DNA from: Candidatus Thiodiazotropha endolucinida
GTDB lineage: Bacteria; Pseudomonadota; Gammaproteobacteria; Chromatiales; Chromatiaceae
DNA: 64,000 bases
Assembly (NCBI RefSeq): GCF_001715975.1
Contig: NZ_MARB01000006.1
Coordinates: 124,001 to 188,000, forward strand
Reading direction: 5' to 3'
The notes beneath the pieces are model-generated. The model searched no databases. It saw only the letters and a program-made list of their open reading frames with translations, and was not told the DNA's origin. The position numbers and the translations under genes are program-made. How positions within the stretch are numbered: the stretch's first letter is position 1; each line of letters starts with the position of its first letter. Positions 8,588 to 13,711 of this stretch are shown here, one piece after another.

Positions 8588-8718
8588 CATCAGGACATTC
8601 TCACGATAGGCTGCGCGTCGTGGATTACTGATACGTATTTACCGGAAGTGACGGCTTCGTGCTAACCTTCATGTATGGGGTTAGGCTGTTCTGCACAACA
8701 ATCAGAGGGGGATGTGGT

Positions 8719-9282
8719 ATGAAAGCAACAAAACATACTCTTTTGGCTGGAGGACTCCTGATAGCGATTGGCATGATGCTTCCCCTTGCTGGAACCATGG
8801 CCCAGGGAGGCTATATGCCTTACGGCTATGGGCAGGGATATGCCTCACCCCGTCCGTATTACATGCCGGTTATGCCTCCTCATCCCGCCTACGGTGGATA
8901 CGGCAGTGCACCAGGTTACGGGTACGGCCCATACGGACAACCGTTCGGCGGTTATTATCCTCCACAGTCAGACTACAAAATCGTGCCGCATCCCACTCAG
9001 CAAGGTATGTCCGGAATGCAGGGCATGAGCGATGCGGAGGGTATGTCGGGTATGCAGAGCATGAGCGGCATGCAGGGGATGTCTGGCCAGCAGGGCATGG
9101 GCGATGCGGAGGGTATGTCGGGCATGCAGGGTGCCGAAGCTTTGCTGGCTATACCGCTATTAAGGGGCATGATGGGCACCTACAGGATATCCCCCTCCGG
9201 CGAGATTCTTCTTTACCCCATTGCGTCTGAGCCGGCCGCGGCACCAACAGCTAAGGATTCGACTGAAACGGGAACCCAATAG
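8719..9282 (+). CDS. Exported Gly/Tyr/Pro-rich protein with Met-Ser-Gly-Met-Gln repeats
   Basis: 187 residues from the ATG at 8719, preceded by GAGGGG at 8705-8710. The N-terminus is a Sec signal peptide (MKATKHTLLAGGLLIAIGMM, likely cleaved after AGTMA). Residues about 32-85 are rich in Gly, Tyr and Pro (GYGQGYASPRPYY, APGYGYGPYG). Residues about 95-135 are tandem copies of GMSGMQGMS and GMSDAEGMSGM. The first part resembles the composition of sulfur globule envelope proteins (SgpA/B of purple sulfur bacteria), which are also small, exported and Gly/Tyr-rich. It lies next to a sulfur operon. That link is inference, since low-complexity surface proteins look alike. No domain is recognised. 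Confidence 0.7.
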   Translation: MKATKHTLLAGGLLIAIGMMLPLAGTMAQGGYMPYGYGQGYASPRPYYMPVMPPHPAYGGYGSAPGYGYGPYGQPFGGYYPPQSDYKIVPHPTQQGMSGMQGMSDAEGMSGMQSMSGMQGMSGQQGMGDAEGMSGMQGAEALLAIPLLRGMMGTYRISPSGEILLYPIASEPAAAPTAKDSTETGTQ

Positions 9283-9479: not shown

Positions 9480-9803
9480 TCAACCCACTTCTATATCCGC
9501 TTCTTTATAGAAGCGTTCGCCATTTTGTCCACTCCAAATGAAACGGAAATGCCCGCTCTGGTTGATCCTGACAAAGAAAGACAGGTAAGGATTGCCGGCG
9601 GTACCCGAGTCGAACTCGGCCTTGAACACTTCCGCTCCATTGAATTGGCAGGAGAACTCCCCAATCAAGTCTTTGGGTACAATTTCACCATTCTGCCGAC
9701 GACGCCAGCCAGACTCCATCGGGTGGTTGAGCTTGGTCATGATCCGGACCACTTCACCCATCTTCGCGGTTCGGGGAACTTTTACATGCGCCTGCTCGTT
9801 CAT
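9480..9803 (-). CDS. soxZ: Sulfur-oxidation carrier subunit SoxZ
   Basis: 107 residues of the SoxZ immunoglobulin-like fold, with typical segments KLNHPMESGWRR, GEFSCQFNGAEVF, GTAGNPYLSFFVR and HFRFIWSGQNG. SoxZ has no signal peptide and forms the periplasmic SoxYZ carrier with SoxY, exported piggyback. I chose the ATG at 9803, which overlaps the soxY stop (TAATG) and follows GGAGG at a 9-base spacing, over the upstream GTG at 9812. It is the last gene of the sulfur operon. Confidence 0.95.
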   Translation of the reverse strand: MNEQAHVKVPRTAKMGEVVRIMTKLNHPMESGWRRRQNGEIVPKDLIGEFSCQFNGAEVFKAEFDSGTAGNPYLSFFVRINQSGHFRFIWSGQNGERFYKEADIEVG

Positions 9804-10261
9804 TATCCGCACCCTCCTGCGCCGCCGGTGATCTTACTTCGTCCTTTACCCAGATAGACACTGCCATCATTCATTTCGGCCGCTACAACCACCACCTGGG
9901 TCTTGAGTAAACGGATGCGTGTTGAGACCTGGGCCTTGCCATTGGCGGGGCTCAGGTGGAACGAGGCTATCTCCGGGCTTGGATTGCGTTCGGCGACTAT
10001 GTGGATTGCCTTGACGTAATCGTTTTCGTTCATGGGGCTATCCACCGAAATCCGGATGGGTACGAAGCGACCCTGGTCTGTCACCTTGGGCAGCGTAATA
10101 CTGATTCGGCCTTTTTGTGATTTAACGCCGCCGGTCAGTTCTGCAAGGCGTTTCTTGGCGTCGCGCGGCCCTGCCTGGGCGGACCCGATCAGGTCGGTGA
10201 CCGGAAATCCCGCAGCCGCCCAAGCGCCGCACAGTATCAATATTTGGCGACGGTTTAACAT
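9803..10261 (-). CDS. soxY: Sulfur-oxidation carrier protein SoxY
   Basis: 152 residues. The twin-arginine-type signal (NRRQILILCGAW...SAQA) fits Tat export. The mature domain has the SoxY pattern (ISITLPKVTDQGRFVPIRISVDSP). The C-terminus is GGAGGCG, the flexible arm whose Cys carries the sulfur substrate as a thioadduct. The usual end is GGCGG, and here the last Gly is missing. SoxYZ carries intermediates between SoxAX, SoxB and SoxCD, but none of those genes is adjacent. Immediately upstream (27-base gap) is the octaheme cytochrome gene. Confidence 0.93.
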   Translation of the reverse strand: MLNRRQILILCGAWAAAGFPVTDLIGSAQAGPRDAKKRLAELTGGVKSQKGRISITLPKVTDQGRFVPIRISVDSPMNENDYVKAIHIVAERNPSPEIASFHLSPANGKAQVSTRIRLLKTQVVVVAAEMNDGSVYLGKGRSKITGGAGGCG

Positions 10262-10288
10262 GCTTGACCTCCGATTACTCTTCTGTGG

Positions 10289-12499
10289 TCAGTCATTGAC
10301 ACTACCCCTCTCTTGTTTTTGCGCAGGTTCCGCTTCAATCTCCTCCCATCCAGTCAACATGGCTTTGATATGAGCCGTTACGGTATGTCCGGTCGTGGTC
10401 AGATAGACATGGCCGATAAAGAACACCGCAAGCAGATAAGCTGCTAGGGTGTGCATGAAGGCGATCAAGCCCAGCTCAAGGCCGCCAAGGCCCCATTGGC
10501 TCCAGTCGTTATAGAACAGATAGAGTAGTCCGGATATCCAGACCGCCGGTGCCAGCACCAGTTTGAACAATAAATAGGCGAGTCGTTGCAGCGGGTTGTG
10601 CTTATGCAGCTTGGTGGCCCGGAAGGGGTGAGGTTGGTTCTTGAAGATGTCCACCGAGTAATATCGGGCCACCGCGAGTACTTTGTTCGTGGTCGGAATG
10701 TACTGGCGCCATTCGCCGGTGGTGAAGTGCCAGAAGATGGCAAACACCCAAAGGCCGATCAATATCCAGGCAGCTAGTGTGTGCAGGTTCATGGCCTGTT
10801 CCATACCAAAAAGCGTGTAGCTCCCGTGTATTTCGAAGCCTGTGATTAACATGAACAGGATCAACAACGCCTGAGCCCAGTGCCAGAAGCGTTCGAACCG
10901 TTTGAAGATATAGATCTTCTTTTGCGGGTGGTCCGTGGTCTGCTTATCCTTGGGGCGTAACAGAAAACGCGCGCTGCCGTGCAGCAGCACACCCGCCAAC
11001 GTCATCAAAAGTATGATCATGGCGATCTTGTCCATCCAGGGATGACTGTGCTGACCGGGGATATAGAGACCTTCGACATTTCCCAGCAGGCCGTTTTCAC
11101 TATGGCACTCGGTGCACCTAAGCGCCTCTTCTGAGGGTGCAACCATGTGGGTGATCGGCCACAGCATTTCTGTCGAGACGAAGTCGTAGCTGCCGCTATA
11201 CGGTCGGTTGATCGCCTGCATGCCGAGTTTGATCGACTGGTCCCAGTTGAAGGTTTTCCAATAGCCTTCCTCGGTGGTCGTAAGCGGCGCAACCAAGGTT
11301 TTATATTCGGCATCGTAAGGTTGTTTGCCGCGCATCACCTTGACTGGCCAAATACGCGTACCGGGTGAATCGGCGTCCCCCAGAAGCTTGTTGATCGGCA
11401 CGATGGCGCCCGGGTCAATTGTGTCTTCGACCAGCGTATAAAGCACGTCACCGTTGAACCAGCGATATTCAGGACGGGTATGCATCTCCCAAGTGAAGTC
11501 ACCTTTTTTTGAGTTATAGATTTCGAATCCAAAGGCATCTTCGGTGCCGAAAGGCTTGCCCTCCTGATTCATCTTGCCCGCTTGGGACCAGTCCCACCAA
11601 AGTTTGGAACCGTAGTCGCCGCGTGAATAGCGTTGTATATGACAGGTTTGACAGGCGATCCTGTCGGTGTGGTCATTAAGTTTCTCGTCCCGTCTGTGGG
11701 GTCTGGGATCATGACAGGCGCGGCAACTTACGCGACTCTTCTCCTCCCTGCCGGGTACGCTGATTTTCTGATTATCGGCAGCGTTGGGCGCATAACGGCT
11801 ACCGGCCAATTCGTGTTGATCACTCCGGTGGCAGGTGGAGCAGGAGAAATTGAGGCCTTCGGCATCCATGTGCACGTCTACGAAGTAGTCAGGTGCTGCA
11901 AGGGTCGGGTCAATATCGCCGTGTTTGACCGCCTTGGCCCCACCGCCGGCAAAATGACAGCTGCCGCAGTTGCGCCGGCTGGTGGGGCCGACGTTCTGGG
12001 CGAACTTCTCGAGCTTTGGTCTTCTTTTGCCCGGATTGCGCAGTTTCTCTCTGGAGTAGAGACCGGTGGTATCGTGACAGACCAGGCAGTCCACCGCCTC
12101 TTCAGAAGAGAAGTCGAAGCTGTCGTCTTTCCAACCGTAACTGATGTGACAGGCGGTGCACGCGGCAATGTTGGGACCGGCTGCGATACAGAAGTTATTC
12201 AAAACATGCTTTTTACCCAATTTCTGCCCAGTTGCCGGATTGTCGTACTCCCATCGCCAGTGCTTCGATTTATGTATCTGTTTTGCGGCGTTAGTGTGGC
12301 ACGCCAGACAGGCCCGGGTAACTTCCGGCCCTGTCAAGAACTTTGTTTGCAGCTGTTCGAATTTGCTGTGATCCGCGGTGGAACCCGGTGTCGGCGTTGC
12401 GTTTACCCGCACAGAGAATGCCAGGGCCAATCCTAGCAACAGCAAGATGGTGGTATTTCTAACCAGAAGTCTGTTATATCGATTCTGTTGCGAATACAT
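10289..12499 (-). CDS. Octaheme c-type cytochrome (tetrathionate reductase family) fused to a cytochrome b561-like domain
   Basis: 736 residues. A signal/anchor segment (17-34) precedes eight CxxCH haem-binding motifs: CLACH, CTACH, CLVCH, CGSCH, CSTCH, CRACH, CQTCH and CTECH, the first three at 64, 114 and 138. The stretch NNFCIAAGPNIAACTACH followed by YGWKD is characteristic of the Otr octaheme family of Shewanella, which can reduce tetrathionate, nitrite and hydroxylamine in vitro. From about 485 on there are about five membrane helices with paired histidines (RFWHWAQ, LHTLAAW, FWHFTTGEW, FMHTLAAY, GHVYLTTTGH), a di-haem cytochrome b561 type. The fusion suggests direct electron exchange between the quinone pool and the periplasmic multihaem domain. 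Direction (oxidising or reducing) cannot be read from sequence. Confidence 0.9.
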   Translation of the reverse strand: MYSQQNRYNRLLVRNTTILLLLGLALAFSVRVNATPTPGSTADHSKFEQLQTKFLTGPEVTRACLACHTNAAKQIHKSKHWRWEYDNPATGQKLGKKHVLNNFCIAAGPNIAACTACHISYGWKDDSFDFSSEEAVDCLVCHDTTGLYSREKLRNPGKRRPKLEKFAQNVGPTSRRNCGSCHFAGGGAKAVKHGDIDPTLAAPDYFVDVHMDAEGLNFSCSTCHRSDQHELAGSRYAPNAADNQKISVPGREEKSRVSCRACHDPRPHRRDEKLNDHTDRIACQTCHIQRYSRGDYGSKLWWDWSQAGKMNQEGKPFGTEDAFGFEIYNSKKGDFTWEMHTRPEYRWFNGDVLYTLVEDTIDPGAIVPINKLLGDADSPGTRIWPVKVMRGKQPYDAEYKTLVAPLTTTEEGYWKTFNWDQSIKLGMQAINRPYSGSYDFVSTEMLWPITHMVAPSEEALRCTECHSENGLLGNVEGLYIPGQHSHPWMDKIAMIILLMTLAGVLLHGSARFLLRPKDKQTTDHPQKKIYIFKRFERFWHWAQALLILFMLITGFEIHGSYTLFGMEQAMNLHTLAAWILIGLWVFAIFWHFTTGEWRQYIPTTNKVLAVARYYSVDIFKNQPHPFRATKLHKHNPLQRLAYLLFKLVLAPAVWISGLLYLFYNDWSQWGLGGLELGLIAFMHTLAAYLLAVFFIGHVYLTTTGHTVTAHIKAMLTGWEEIEAEPAQKQERGSVND

Positions 12500-12583
12500 G
12501 GCGACACCAACAGCTCGTTCATCTGCGGGGGACGTGTCAACGCCCCCCAGTGAATTGCTACAAATGGTTAAGGGTCGCTCAGC

Positions 12584-13711
12584 CTATTCGAGTGGCGTGG
12601 CTTTCGGCACACTGCCATCCGGATTGAAAGCGACGTTGGCGTCGAGGAAGTAGATCTTCAGATCCTCCCGTTTCATCATGACGAGGTCATAGGCCTCGCC
12701 ACTACGCGCGCCAGTGGAGCAGAAGAAGACGATTGGTTTGTCCGTAGGTAGTTTATCGATGTTTTCTTCCACTTCATCCACGGTCATGATGACAGCTTTT
12801 GCAAAGGTGCCGTCCGACTCCACCTCTTCCGGATCGCGAACGTCGTACCAATAGAAGTCTTCGGGGTTGTTGGTTGCCAGCGTATTGAATGAGGCGATAC
12901 TGATGGTCCCCTCGTCTTCTCCCGCTTCGATCTTCGGGGCTGCTGCGGGTTTGGCTTTAGCCGTCTTTTCAATCGCGTCACCATAAGCCTTCTTCCAGGC
13001 GGGATAGCCAGCCTGAAACAGGCGTACTTTGGTGTACCCCATGGCGACGGCCTTCACCGCAGACTTCGGACTCAGCGGACATTTGTAACCGCCGCAGTAG
13101 AAGATCAATGGCGAGTTCTTATCCGTAGGCAACCTGTCCACCAGCTTATCGAACTGCCTCAGGGGAACGTTGATGGCGCCGGGTAGGTGACCCTTTTTGA
13201 ATTTTCTTGCAGGACGCGCGTCGACGATGGTCGCTCCCTTGTTTTTGTCGATCAGCATCTTGACGTGCGCAGCGCTGACGCCCGGAGGCAGACCGCCGTT
13301 TTTGACCCAGTCGGGAAAACCTGCCGCATAGACCTTGACGTTGGTATATCCCAACGCTTCGGCTTTGGCTGCCGACTTGTGGCTCAGCGGGCACTTCAGG
13401 CCGCCGCAATAGAAGATCAACAGGTTGGATTTGTTCTGGGGCAGCAGATGGGTCATCTTGTCGAACTGGCTGTTGGAGATGTTGATGGCCGGAACGATAT
13501 GACCCTTGTTGTATTTTCTGGCTGGCCTGGAATCAACAATCAGCACCTCTTTCTTGGGTGGTACCGTTGCGTACTGGGTGACAAAGCTGGCATCAACGAC
13601 GTCTTTGTACCACCAGCTGGGTTTTTCTTTGGCCTGTTCGGCGGCGAAAACTGGAAGGGTTAGAAATATAACGAGTGCCGTAAAGGCACTTCCTAGTGCG
13701 AGGCGTTTCAT
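12584..13711 (-). CDS. Periplasmic triple-rhodanese protein
   Basis: 375 residues from the ATG at 13711, preceded by GAGAGGAAG. An upstream in-frame start at 13768 lacks a ribosome-binding site. A Sec signal peptide ends near VFAAEQ. Three rhodanese domains follow. The first two are close duplicates with active-site loops YCGGLKCPLSHKSA (Cys102) and YCGGYKCPLSPKSA (Cys206), each with a second Cys. The third has FFCSTGARSGEA (Cys331). Rhodaneses carry sulfane sulfur as a Cys persulfide. As first gene of the operon with the octaheme-b561 fusion and soxYZ, it could hand sulfur to or take it from SoxYZ (inference). Confidence 0.88.
   Translation of the reverse strand: MKRLALGSAFTALVIFLTLPVFAAEQAKEKPSWWYKDVVDASFVTQYATVPPKKEVLIVDSRPARKYNKGHIVPAINISNSQFDKMTHLLPQNKSNLLIFYCGGLKCPLSHKSAAKAEALGYTNVKVYAAGFPDWVKNGGLPPGVSAAHVKMLIDKNKGATIVDARPARKFKKGHLPGAINVPLRQFDKLVDRLPTDKNSPLIFYCGGYKCPLSPKSAVKAVAMGYTKVRLFQAGYPAWKKAYGDAIEKTAKAKPAAAPKIEAGEDEGTISIASFNTLATNNPEDFYWYDVRDPEEVESDGTFAKAVIMTVDEVEENIDKLPTDKPIVFFCSTGARSGEAYDLVMMKREDLKIYFLDANVAFNPDGSVPKATPLE

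Follow-up and report, generated by a model that had tools for sequence, protein, structure and literature searches.

What could a SoxYZ sulfur carrier do in an operon that is encoded apart from SoxA and SoxB? This question is raised by a four-gene run of Candidatus Thiodiazotropha endolucinida, located in the window analysed here, i.e. the 64,000 nucleotides at positions 124001-188000 of contig NZ_MARB01000006.1 (contig C6 of genome G000, which comprises 4.49 Mb). Our comparison revealed that a triple rhodanese, an octahaem cytochrome of the OTR family, SoxY and SoxZ form a conserved gene set with conserved catalytic residues and, in the window, a b561 membrane domain, and that SoxA and SoxB are undetected in some of its carriers. 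The reading that we favour, if only tentatively, is a sulfur-carrier module able to work without Sox enzymes, in which OTR-b561 would act on SoxY-bound sulfur in a quinone-linked and preferably oxidative reaction.

A conserved set of rhodanese, OTR, SoxY and SoxZ

The run reads rhodanese, OTR-b561, SoxY and SoxZ from 13711 down to 9480 and contains the following features:

12584..13711, minus strand: periplasmic triple rhodanese of 375 amino acids (three PF00581 stretches)
10289..12499, minus strand: OTR-family octahaem cytochrome c with b561 domain, 736 amino acids (TIGR04315 at 566 bits, PF11783, PF01292)
11063..12376, minus strand: OTR domain, residues 42-479 (extent of the TIGR04315 match), with eight CxxCH motifs
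11924..11935, minus strand: loop with Lys189 and Lys192, corresponding to Asp150 and Lys153 in the alignment to 1sp3
10349..10906, minus strand: b561 membrane domain, residues 532-717 (PF01292, 81.5 bits)
9803..10261, minus strand: SoxY of the S3 type, with a twin-arginine start (NRR) and an arm ending in ITGGAGGCG, Cys151 (PF13501, 104.5 bits)
9480..9803, minus strand: SoxZ (PF08770, 78.9 bits), whose start shares one base with the SoxY stop

The genes are tightly packed, with spacings of 84, 27 and -1 bases, and the best start of SoxZ is the ATG at 9803 rather than an upstream GTG. The initial annotation had described four co-directional genes at this place, comprising a three-domain rhodanese, an Otr-family octahaem cytochrome with its own b561 domain and a SoxY with a terminal cysteine; all of this is borne out, and the cysteine in question, Cys151, is the penultimate residue.

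Three aligned OTR sequences served as the basis for a scan of GTDB species genomes (two peptide patterns), by which divergent members are missed, and we judged the gene content of the 58 resulting loci by phmmer. Besides the window, 14 of these loci combine OTR with SoxY and SoxZ, and 13 of the 14 also encode the triple rhodanese; in the fourteenth (L069), the OTR frame begins at base 126 and the contig stops 1.4 kb past SoxZ. The co-occurrence of rhodanese, octahaem cytochrome and soxYZ, for which the initial annotation had proposed a search, therefore extends to 13 further loci, usually together with b561. OTR and a triple-like rhodanese without SoxYZ were found in 35 loci, namely 34 of a betaproteobacterial layout and L087, which is cut inside OTR, while neither SoxYZ nor rhodanese lies beside OTR in the remaining nine. 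L068 and G113 have identical sequences, as have L087 and G037, and L048 duplicates L087. The nearest relatives of the module, L066 and L067, belong to Ctena orbiculata symbionts (85% in OTR-b561). Titles naming no clam (lucinid) host accompany 12 of the 14 linked loci, and a trait restricted to lucinid symbionts was rejected on these grounds.

The gene order that the initial annotation expected to be conserved is kept in the gammaproteobacterial loci (rhodanese-OTR-SoxY-SoxZ in the window, L066, L067, L068, L078 and L088), whereas eight alphaproteobacterial loci place the rhodanese last (OTR-(b561)-SoxY-SoxZ-rhodanese), with some 900 bases before it in L084. OTR and b561 are fused in five of the 15 linked loci (window, L066-L069) and adjacent in five; b561 follows the rhodanese in L082 and was not seen in the available stretch of L078, L080, L083 and L088. 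Since the fusion is found in a third of the linked loci, it is not what defines the gene set, and we rejected it as a defining trait. In L085, the module is followed by a regulator similar to BigR (90.6 bits, cut-off 155) and a dioxygenase domain similar to Blh (398.5 bits, cut-off 625).

In betaproteobacteria such as Sulfuritalea and Rhodoferax, the loci encode OTR and b561, followed by a monohaem cytochrome c, often a YeeE-type Sulf_transp protein and finally a triple-type rhodanese, for example in L072 (9,992-16,334), L109 (9,884-15,005) and L118 (1,090-4,936). We found no literature on this operon in open-licence PMC papers. L071 holds SoxYZ plus cytochrome c and YeeE genes and therefore connects the SoxYZ and betaproteobacterial versions. 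Within the family of the host, OTR matches occur in 101 of 146 genomes; the OTR surroundings were read in 20 family stretches, short contigs among them, of which one has SoxYZ and two have the rhodanese. None of the five other genus genomes drawn carries an OTR more than 53% identical to that of the window.

Each rhodanese domain has an active-loop cysteine (Cys102, Cys206 and Cys331), with loop cysteines at 102/107 (CGGLKC), 206/211 (CGGYKC) and 331 (CSTGAR), and all five are conserved in 15 of 15 SoxYZ-group rhodaneses. A fold search with the AlphaFold model (mean pLDDT 87.1) led to multidomain sulfurtransferases, at a low whole-chain TM score of about 0.26. When the search was reversed and started from the triple rhodanese, matches at E<=1e-50 were confined to four of the 398 phylum genomes, including that of the window; two of the three other strong rhodaneses adjoin OTR, b561, cytochrome c and YeeE, and the third, weaker match (276 bits) has neither OTR nor b561 within 19 kb.

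SoxY belongs to its superfamily by its PF13501 score (gathering cut-off 28.4 bits) and C-terminal cysteine, and SoxZ exceeds the PF08770 cut-off of 25 bits. Both fall short of the models for true SoxY (TIGR04488, 102.7 versus 125 bits) and true SoxZ (TIGR04490, 70.2 versus 76 bits), and the SoxY arm reads ITGGAGGCG rather than VTIGGCGG. The arm cysteine is conserved in all 12 aligned SoxYs (the alignment includes 12 of the 15 linked ones) and at the ends of all 14 linked loci. Beyond the OTR scan, SoxY matches were obtained in 66 of 398 phylum genomes, the window's included, the next best at 153 bits compared to 286 for the window. Around 29 other SoxY loci, each with about 1.5 kb per side, neither OTR nor rhodanese was seen; their arms are canonical in 12 and of the type (A/S)AC in 17. 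The dedicated module postulated initially is thus supported in part, as a set of rhodanese, octahaem cytochrome, SoxY and SoxZ in which the cysteines of the rhodanese (all five) and of the SoxY arm are retained, but not as a set defined by the b561 fusion.

The OTR-b561 cytochrome and its clade

OTR-b561 is a single open frame of 736 codons, to which relatives align over nearly the full length. Its TIGR04315 score lies well above the curated cut-off of 375 bits, the eight CxxCH motifs are found at residues 64, 114, 138, 178, 220, 259, 283 and 462, and phmmer matches PDB entry 1sp3, the OTR of Shewanella oneidensis, with 387.5 bits over residues 50-469. For the b561 part, the top NCBIfam match is the PhsC-like thiosulfate reductase cytochrome b (NF011582; 121 bits, below the cut-off of 204). 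According to the AlphaFold model, whose haem domain is of low quality (mean pLDDT 66.8) and which was relied on for helices alone, a helix at 487-514 (pLDDT 54-67) precedes the four b561 helices. This predicted layout fits a periplasmic octahaem domain anchored at the membrane, and a comparable hydrophobic tail is present in the six unfused linked OTRs whose C-terminal ends were inspected.

Lys192, Cys104 and Asn101 align to Lys153, Cys64 and Asn61 of 1sp3 and are conserved in 15 of 15 linked OTRs. Lys153 we take to be the lysine ligand of the catalytic haem, and on this assumption the ligand was looked for and found present as Lys192. Together with Asp150, these residues of 1sp3 reportedly surround the catalytic haem (Mowat et al. 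2004). The catalytic haem of OTR has been assigned as haem II (PMC4484225). At the position of Asp150, lysine occurs in 14 of 16 SoxYZ-clade OTRs (Lys189 in the window; the others have Glu in L070 and Ala in L084), compared to none of 63 OTRs outside this clade, which carry Asp (60) or Asn (3). Thinning at 80% identity leaves lysine in 11 of 13 members of the SoxYZ clade versus 0 of 27 others. The two other OTRs of the host genome retain Asp at position 150, and each has a separate b561 gene. A second OTR and b561 pair of the host is located near the end of contig C7 (L015, G000:C7, 10,641-16,715), beside genes with 4, 8 and 5 CxxCH motifs. OTR homologues with 9 and with 11 such motifs instead of 8 were also observed (L056, L057, L058 and L062, L063).

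In a tree of 78 OTRs, the linked OTRs (window, 14 loci and L087) form one clade (100/100); the group labelled rhd in this tree (42 rows) includes eight loci without visible rhodanese. The linked SoxYs are likewise one clade (100/99), sister to the canonical SoxY of the alphaproteobacterial carriers G158 and G150 (99/95). Between the four genes, pairwise distances are correlated (r 0.85-0.94; window and 13 loci), which vertical descent would also yield. Gammaproteobacterial modules are nested among the alphaproteobacterial ones in the OTR tree (99/87), which could point to an alphaproteobacterial origin, but the two are sister groups in the SoxY tree. Compared to L066/L067, dN/dS is 0.125/0.111 for the rhodanese, 0.117/0.114 for OTR-b561, 0.075/0.084 for SoxY and 0.107/0.114 for SoxZ (the more distant L068 was left out because of saturated synonymous sites). 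On codon comparison with these nearest relatives, the window genes are thus under purifying selection.

Around the operon, the upstream neighbour is a polyprenyl synthetase gene (PF00348) on the same strand, whose end is 437 bases away. A scan gave one promoter-like site versus 4.3 expected and 12 terminator-like sites versus 6.9 expected, none of them decisive. Convergent to the operon, a 207-amino-acid protein with GMSGMQ-type repeats is encoded at 8659-9282 on the plus strand, for which a collagen-repeat match was weak and below threshold.

Sox genes of the carriers and possible roles of the module

SoxA and SoxB had been described as not adjacent to the operon, and the host genome indeed has a single match for each on other contigs (SoxB on C1, SoxA on C16), so that the operon itself does not class as a Sox system. 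SoxC is absent from the host genome at E<=1e-20; no search was made for SoxX and SoxD. Four SoxY-domain genes are present in the host: that of a canonical soxYZ pair on C13, one longer SoxYZ-like gene each on C22 and C1, and that of the window. This layout, in which SoxB, SoxA and canonical SoxYZ are encoded apart from one another, agrees with the one given for Ca. Thiodiazotropha in PMC11237559 and, like the Ctena relatives of the module, points to a lucinid-clam symbiont as the host. Further genes with 8 and 5 CxxCH motifs lie about 1.4 kb from soxB (L014, G000:C1, 11,103-13,276). The host also has two dsrA matches over the cut-off, at C13:57608 and C15:123032 (L221, L220), the former with a weak second match alongside and the latter followed by a 358-codon open reading frame; two dsrA matches over the cut-off were likewise found in G146, G147, G148, G152 and G160.

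Our survey of Sox genes covered 16 genomes, namely the host of the window, the 14 genomes that carry the linked loci and G159, which carries L087. SoxB is over the cut-off in 10 of them and SoxA in 11; DsrA was found in 11, including G153. The sole PF13501 match in each of G153, G154, G155 and G157 is the SoxY of the module; in these genomes, no SoxA was found at E<=1e-5, and neither SoxB nor SoxC is over the cut-off, with a 145-bit SoxC match in G154 and weak SoxB matches in G155 and G157 that score better as 5'-nucleotidases. DsrA was not found in G154 and G157 at E<=1e-20. In a rough completeness check, a class I synthetase family had four matching places in each of G153, G154 and G157 and a single one in G155, which is probably incomplete; the argument from missing Sox enzymes is therefore limited to the first three, all of them alphaproteobacterial metagenome drafts.

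According to the initial annotation, a complete sox operon elsewhere in the genome could make this soxYZ a silent duplicate. With soxA, soxB and soxYZ elsewhere in the host, this case nominally applies, but dN/dS values of 0.075-0.125 and carriers without detectable SoxA and SoxB led us to reject it. The further loci, the clades and purifying selection, the lone module SoxY and the Asp-to-Lys change all speak against a silent duplicate.

We infer a contact between SoxY and OTR, a sulfur exchange with the rhodanese and a direction of the electrons as follows. Sulfur would be held in the periplasm on the C-terminal SoxY cysteine of SoxYZ, and the triple rhodanese could load or unload sulfane sulfur via cysteine persulfides. 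With its lysine-ligated catalytic haem, the octahaem domain would form or cleave the S-S bond on the arm of SoxY, and electrons would be relayed by the b561 domain between the octahaem chain and the membrane quinone. Preferably, the reaction would be oxidative, with OTR-b561 in the role of SoxXA and electrons passing to quinone. We favour this direction because SoxYZ without SoxXA needs a loader and because reduction of a persulfide by quinol would be uphill. Thiosulfate oxidation is listed in a review table as a weaker activity of OTR (PMC5573963). A more far-reaching version could also be considered, to which we give less credence: OTR-b561 might be a SoxYZ:quinone oxidoreductase, an octahaem replacement of SoxXA with a charge reversal in the active site, that together with the triple rhodanese constitutes a periplasmic carrier pathway free of Sox enzymes, and the betaproteobacterial loci might be its carrier-free sister version.

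Several observations weigh against the favoured oxidative carrier module. Reported OTR reactions are mainly reductive (tetrathionate, nitrite and hydroxylamine), which favours the opposite direction (PMC5573963, PMC4484225, PMC6449678). The host additionally has soxA, soxB and canonical soxYZ, b561 is fused or adjacent in just 10 of 15 linked loci, displaced in one and unseen in four, and the betaproteobacterial OTR-rhodanese loci have no SoxYZ nearby. Since the SoxYZ-linked OTR clade is one branch, the Asp-to-Lys change is a single evolutionary event, and its location in the active site is presumed from 1sp3. Furthermore, gene absence in drafts is weak evidence: G146 has four synthetase places and SoxA yet no SoxB match, and its close relative G147 has SoxB. 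In G159, a contig end truncates the module of L087, and a canonical SoxY is the only one detected.

The first alternative, a reductive module, is unlikely in our view but serious. Here, electrons would pass from quinol via b561 to the octahaem domain, which reduces tetrathionate or a SoxY-bound thiosulfonate or polythionate, with SoxYZ and the rhodanese collecting the products. Reduction of a tetrathionate-type bond would not be uphill and would be possible with ubiquinol, which is why this alternative remains a serious one, and the b561 domain is similar to the cytochrome b of thiosulfate reductase. Tetrathionate and nitrite serve as electron acceptors for the OTRs from Shewanella and Beggiatoaceae (PMC4484225; PMC6449678), the Beggiatoaceae enzyme reducing tetrathionate at up to 93 umol/min/mg (PMC6449678), and a tetrathionate link for soxY-S3 has been suggested (Sudo et al., PMC11237559). 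However, such a reduction alone leaves unexplained that some genomes retain a Sox carrier as their sole SoxY, and the Asp-to-Lys change sets the linked OTRs apart from plain ones.

We regard it as improbable that the operon is an accessory to an ordinary truncated Sox system, in which a second SoxYZ with a rhodanese as helper feeds sulfane sulfur to Sox/rDsr beside a respiratory OTR unrelated to it. The host does have soxA, soxB, canonical soxYZ and dsrA, and SoxB and SoxA are common among the surveyed carriers, but the three drafts discussed above are without detectable SoxA, SoxB or another SoxY, and two of them without DsrA. Still less probable is that OTR reduces nitrite or hydroxylamine and that SoxYZ and the rhodanese detoxify sulfur-nitrogen species: OTR can reduce both compounds (PMC4484225), but its conserved neighbours are sulfur-handling proteins (rhodanese and SoxYZ, with YeeE-type Sulf_transp in L071 and many betaproteobacterial loci) and the host has the two other OTRs with Asp kept at position 150. 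A chance neighbourhood or a decaying, functionless duplicate, which the rarity of such an OTR among the genus genomes drawn might suggest, is very improbable given a gene set shared across alpha- and gammaproteobacteria and dN/dS of about 0.1.

Comparison with known systems

The otr-soxY-soxZ island itself is already published. In lucinid-clam symbionts, soxY-S3 was reported to be preceded by otr and followed by soxZ (Sudo et al. 2024, PMC11237559), and clade-3 SoxY was reported in Ca. Thiodiazotropha endolucinida, CTENA1 and CTENA2; the window SoxY has the same neighbours on the same sides, and L066 and L067 are from Ctena orbiculata symbionts. The window locus and the published island are very probably the same locus type. 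The legend of the island figure names rhd without specifying which island, and the same paper suggests a role of soxY-S3 outside the usual Sox pathway (PMC11237559). Beyond that island, an identical gene set, whose SoxYs fall into the same clade, is present in 12 loci not titled lucinid. Neither a description of the conserved set outside lucinid symbionts, by title or passage, nor another description of the otr-soxY-soxZ locus type was found in open-licence PMC papers. As far as our searches show, the wider spread, the occurrence without detectable SoxA and SoxB, and the distinct OTR clade with an altered active-site loop are new. The set bears on the role of OTR-family cytochromes in sulfur bacteria and on how divergent soxY copies give animal symbionts flexibility.

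With the Shewanella OTR (1sp3), the window protein has in common the eight CxxCH motifs and the residues at Lys153, Cys64 and Asn61; it differs by an extra C-terminal helix and b561 domain, by Lys in place of Asp150 and by its linkage to SoxYZ and rhodanese. In a further system that we compared, the neighbours are thiosulfate/polysulfide reductase subunits rather than SoxYZ, and the proteins are unfused. YeeE-like SoxT importers are a case where YeeE-type transporters accompany sox clusters (PMC11582611), and the related OTR-rhodanese loci often have Sulf_transp, whereas among the linked-locus stretches it was seen in L071 only. Finally, the Sox multienzyme system (SoxXAYZB, truncated or complete) shares with the module the SoxYZ carrier and its C-terminal SoxY cysteine, but the module is without SoxA and SoxB and its arm ends in GGAGGCG instead of VTIGGCGG. 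The known role of SoxYZ is to serve the Sox enzymes as their carrier, and the gene set described here makes another enzyme partner of this carrier testable.

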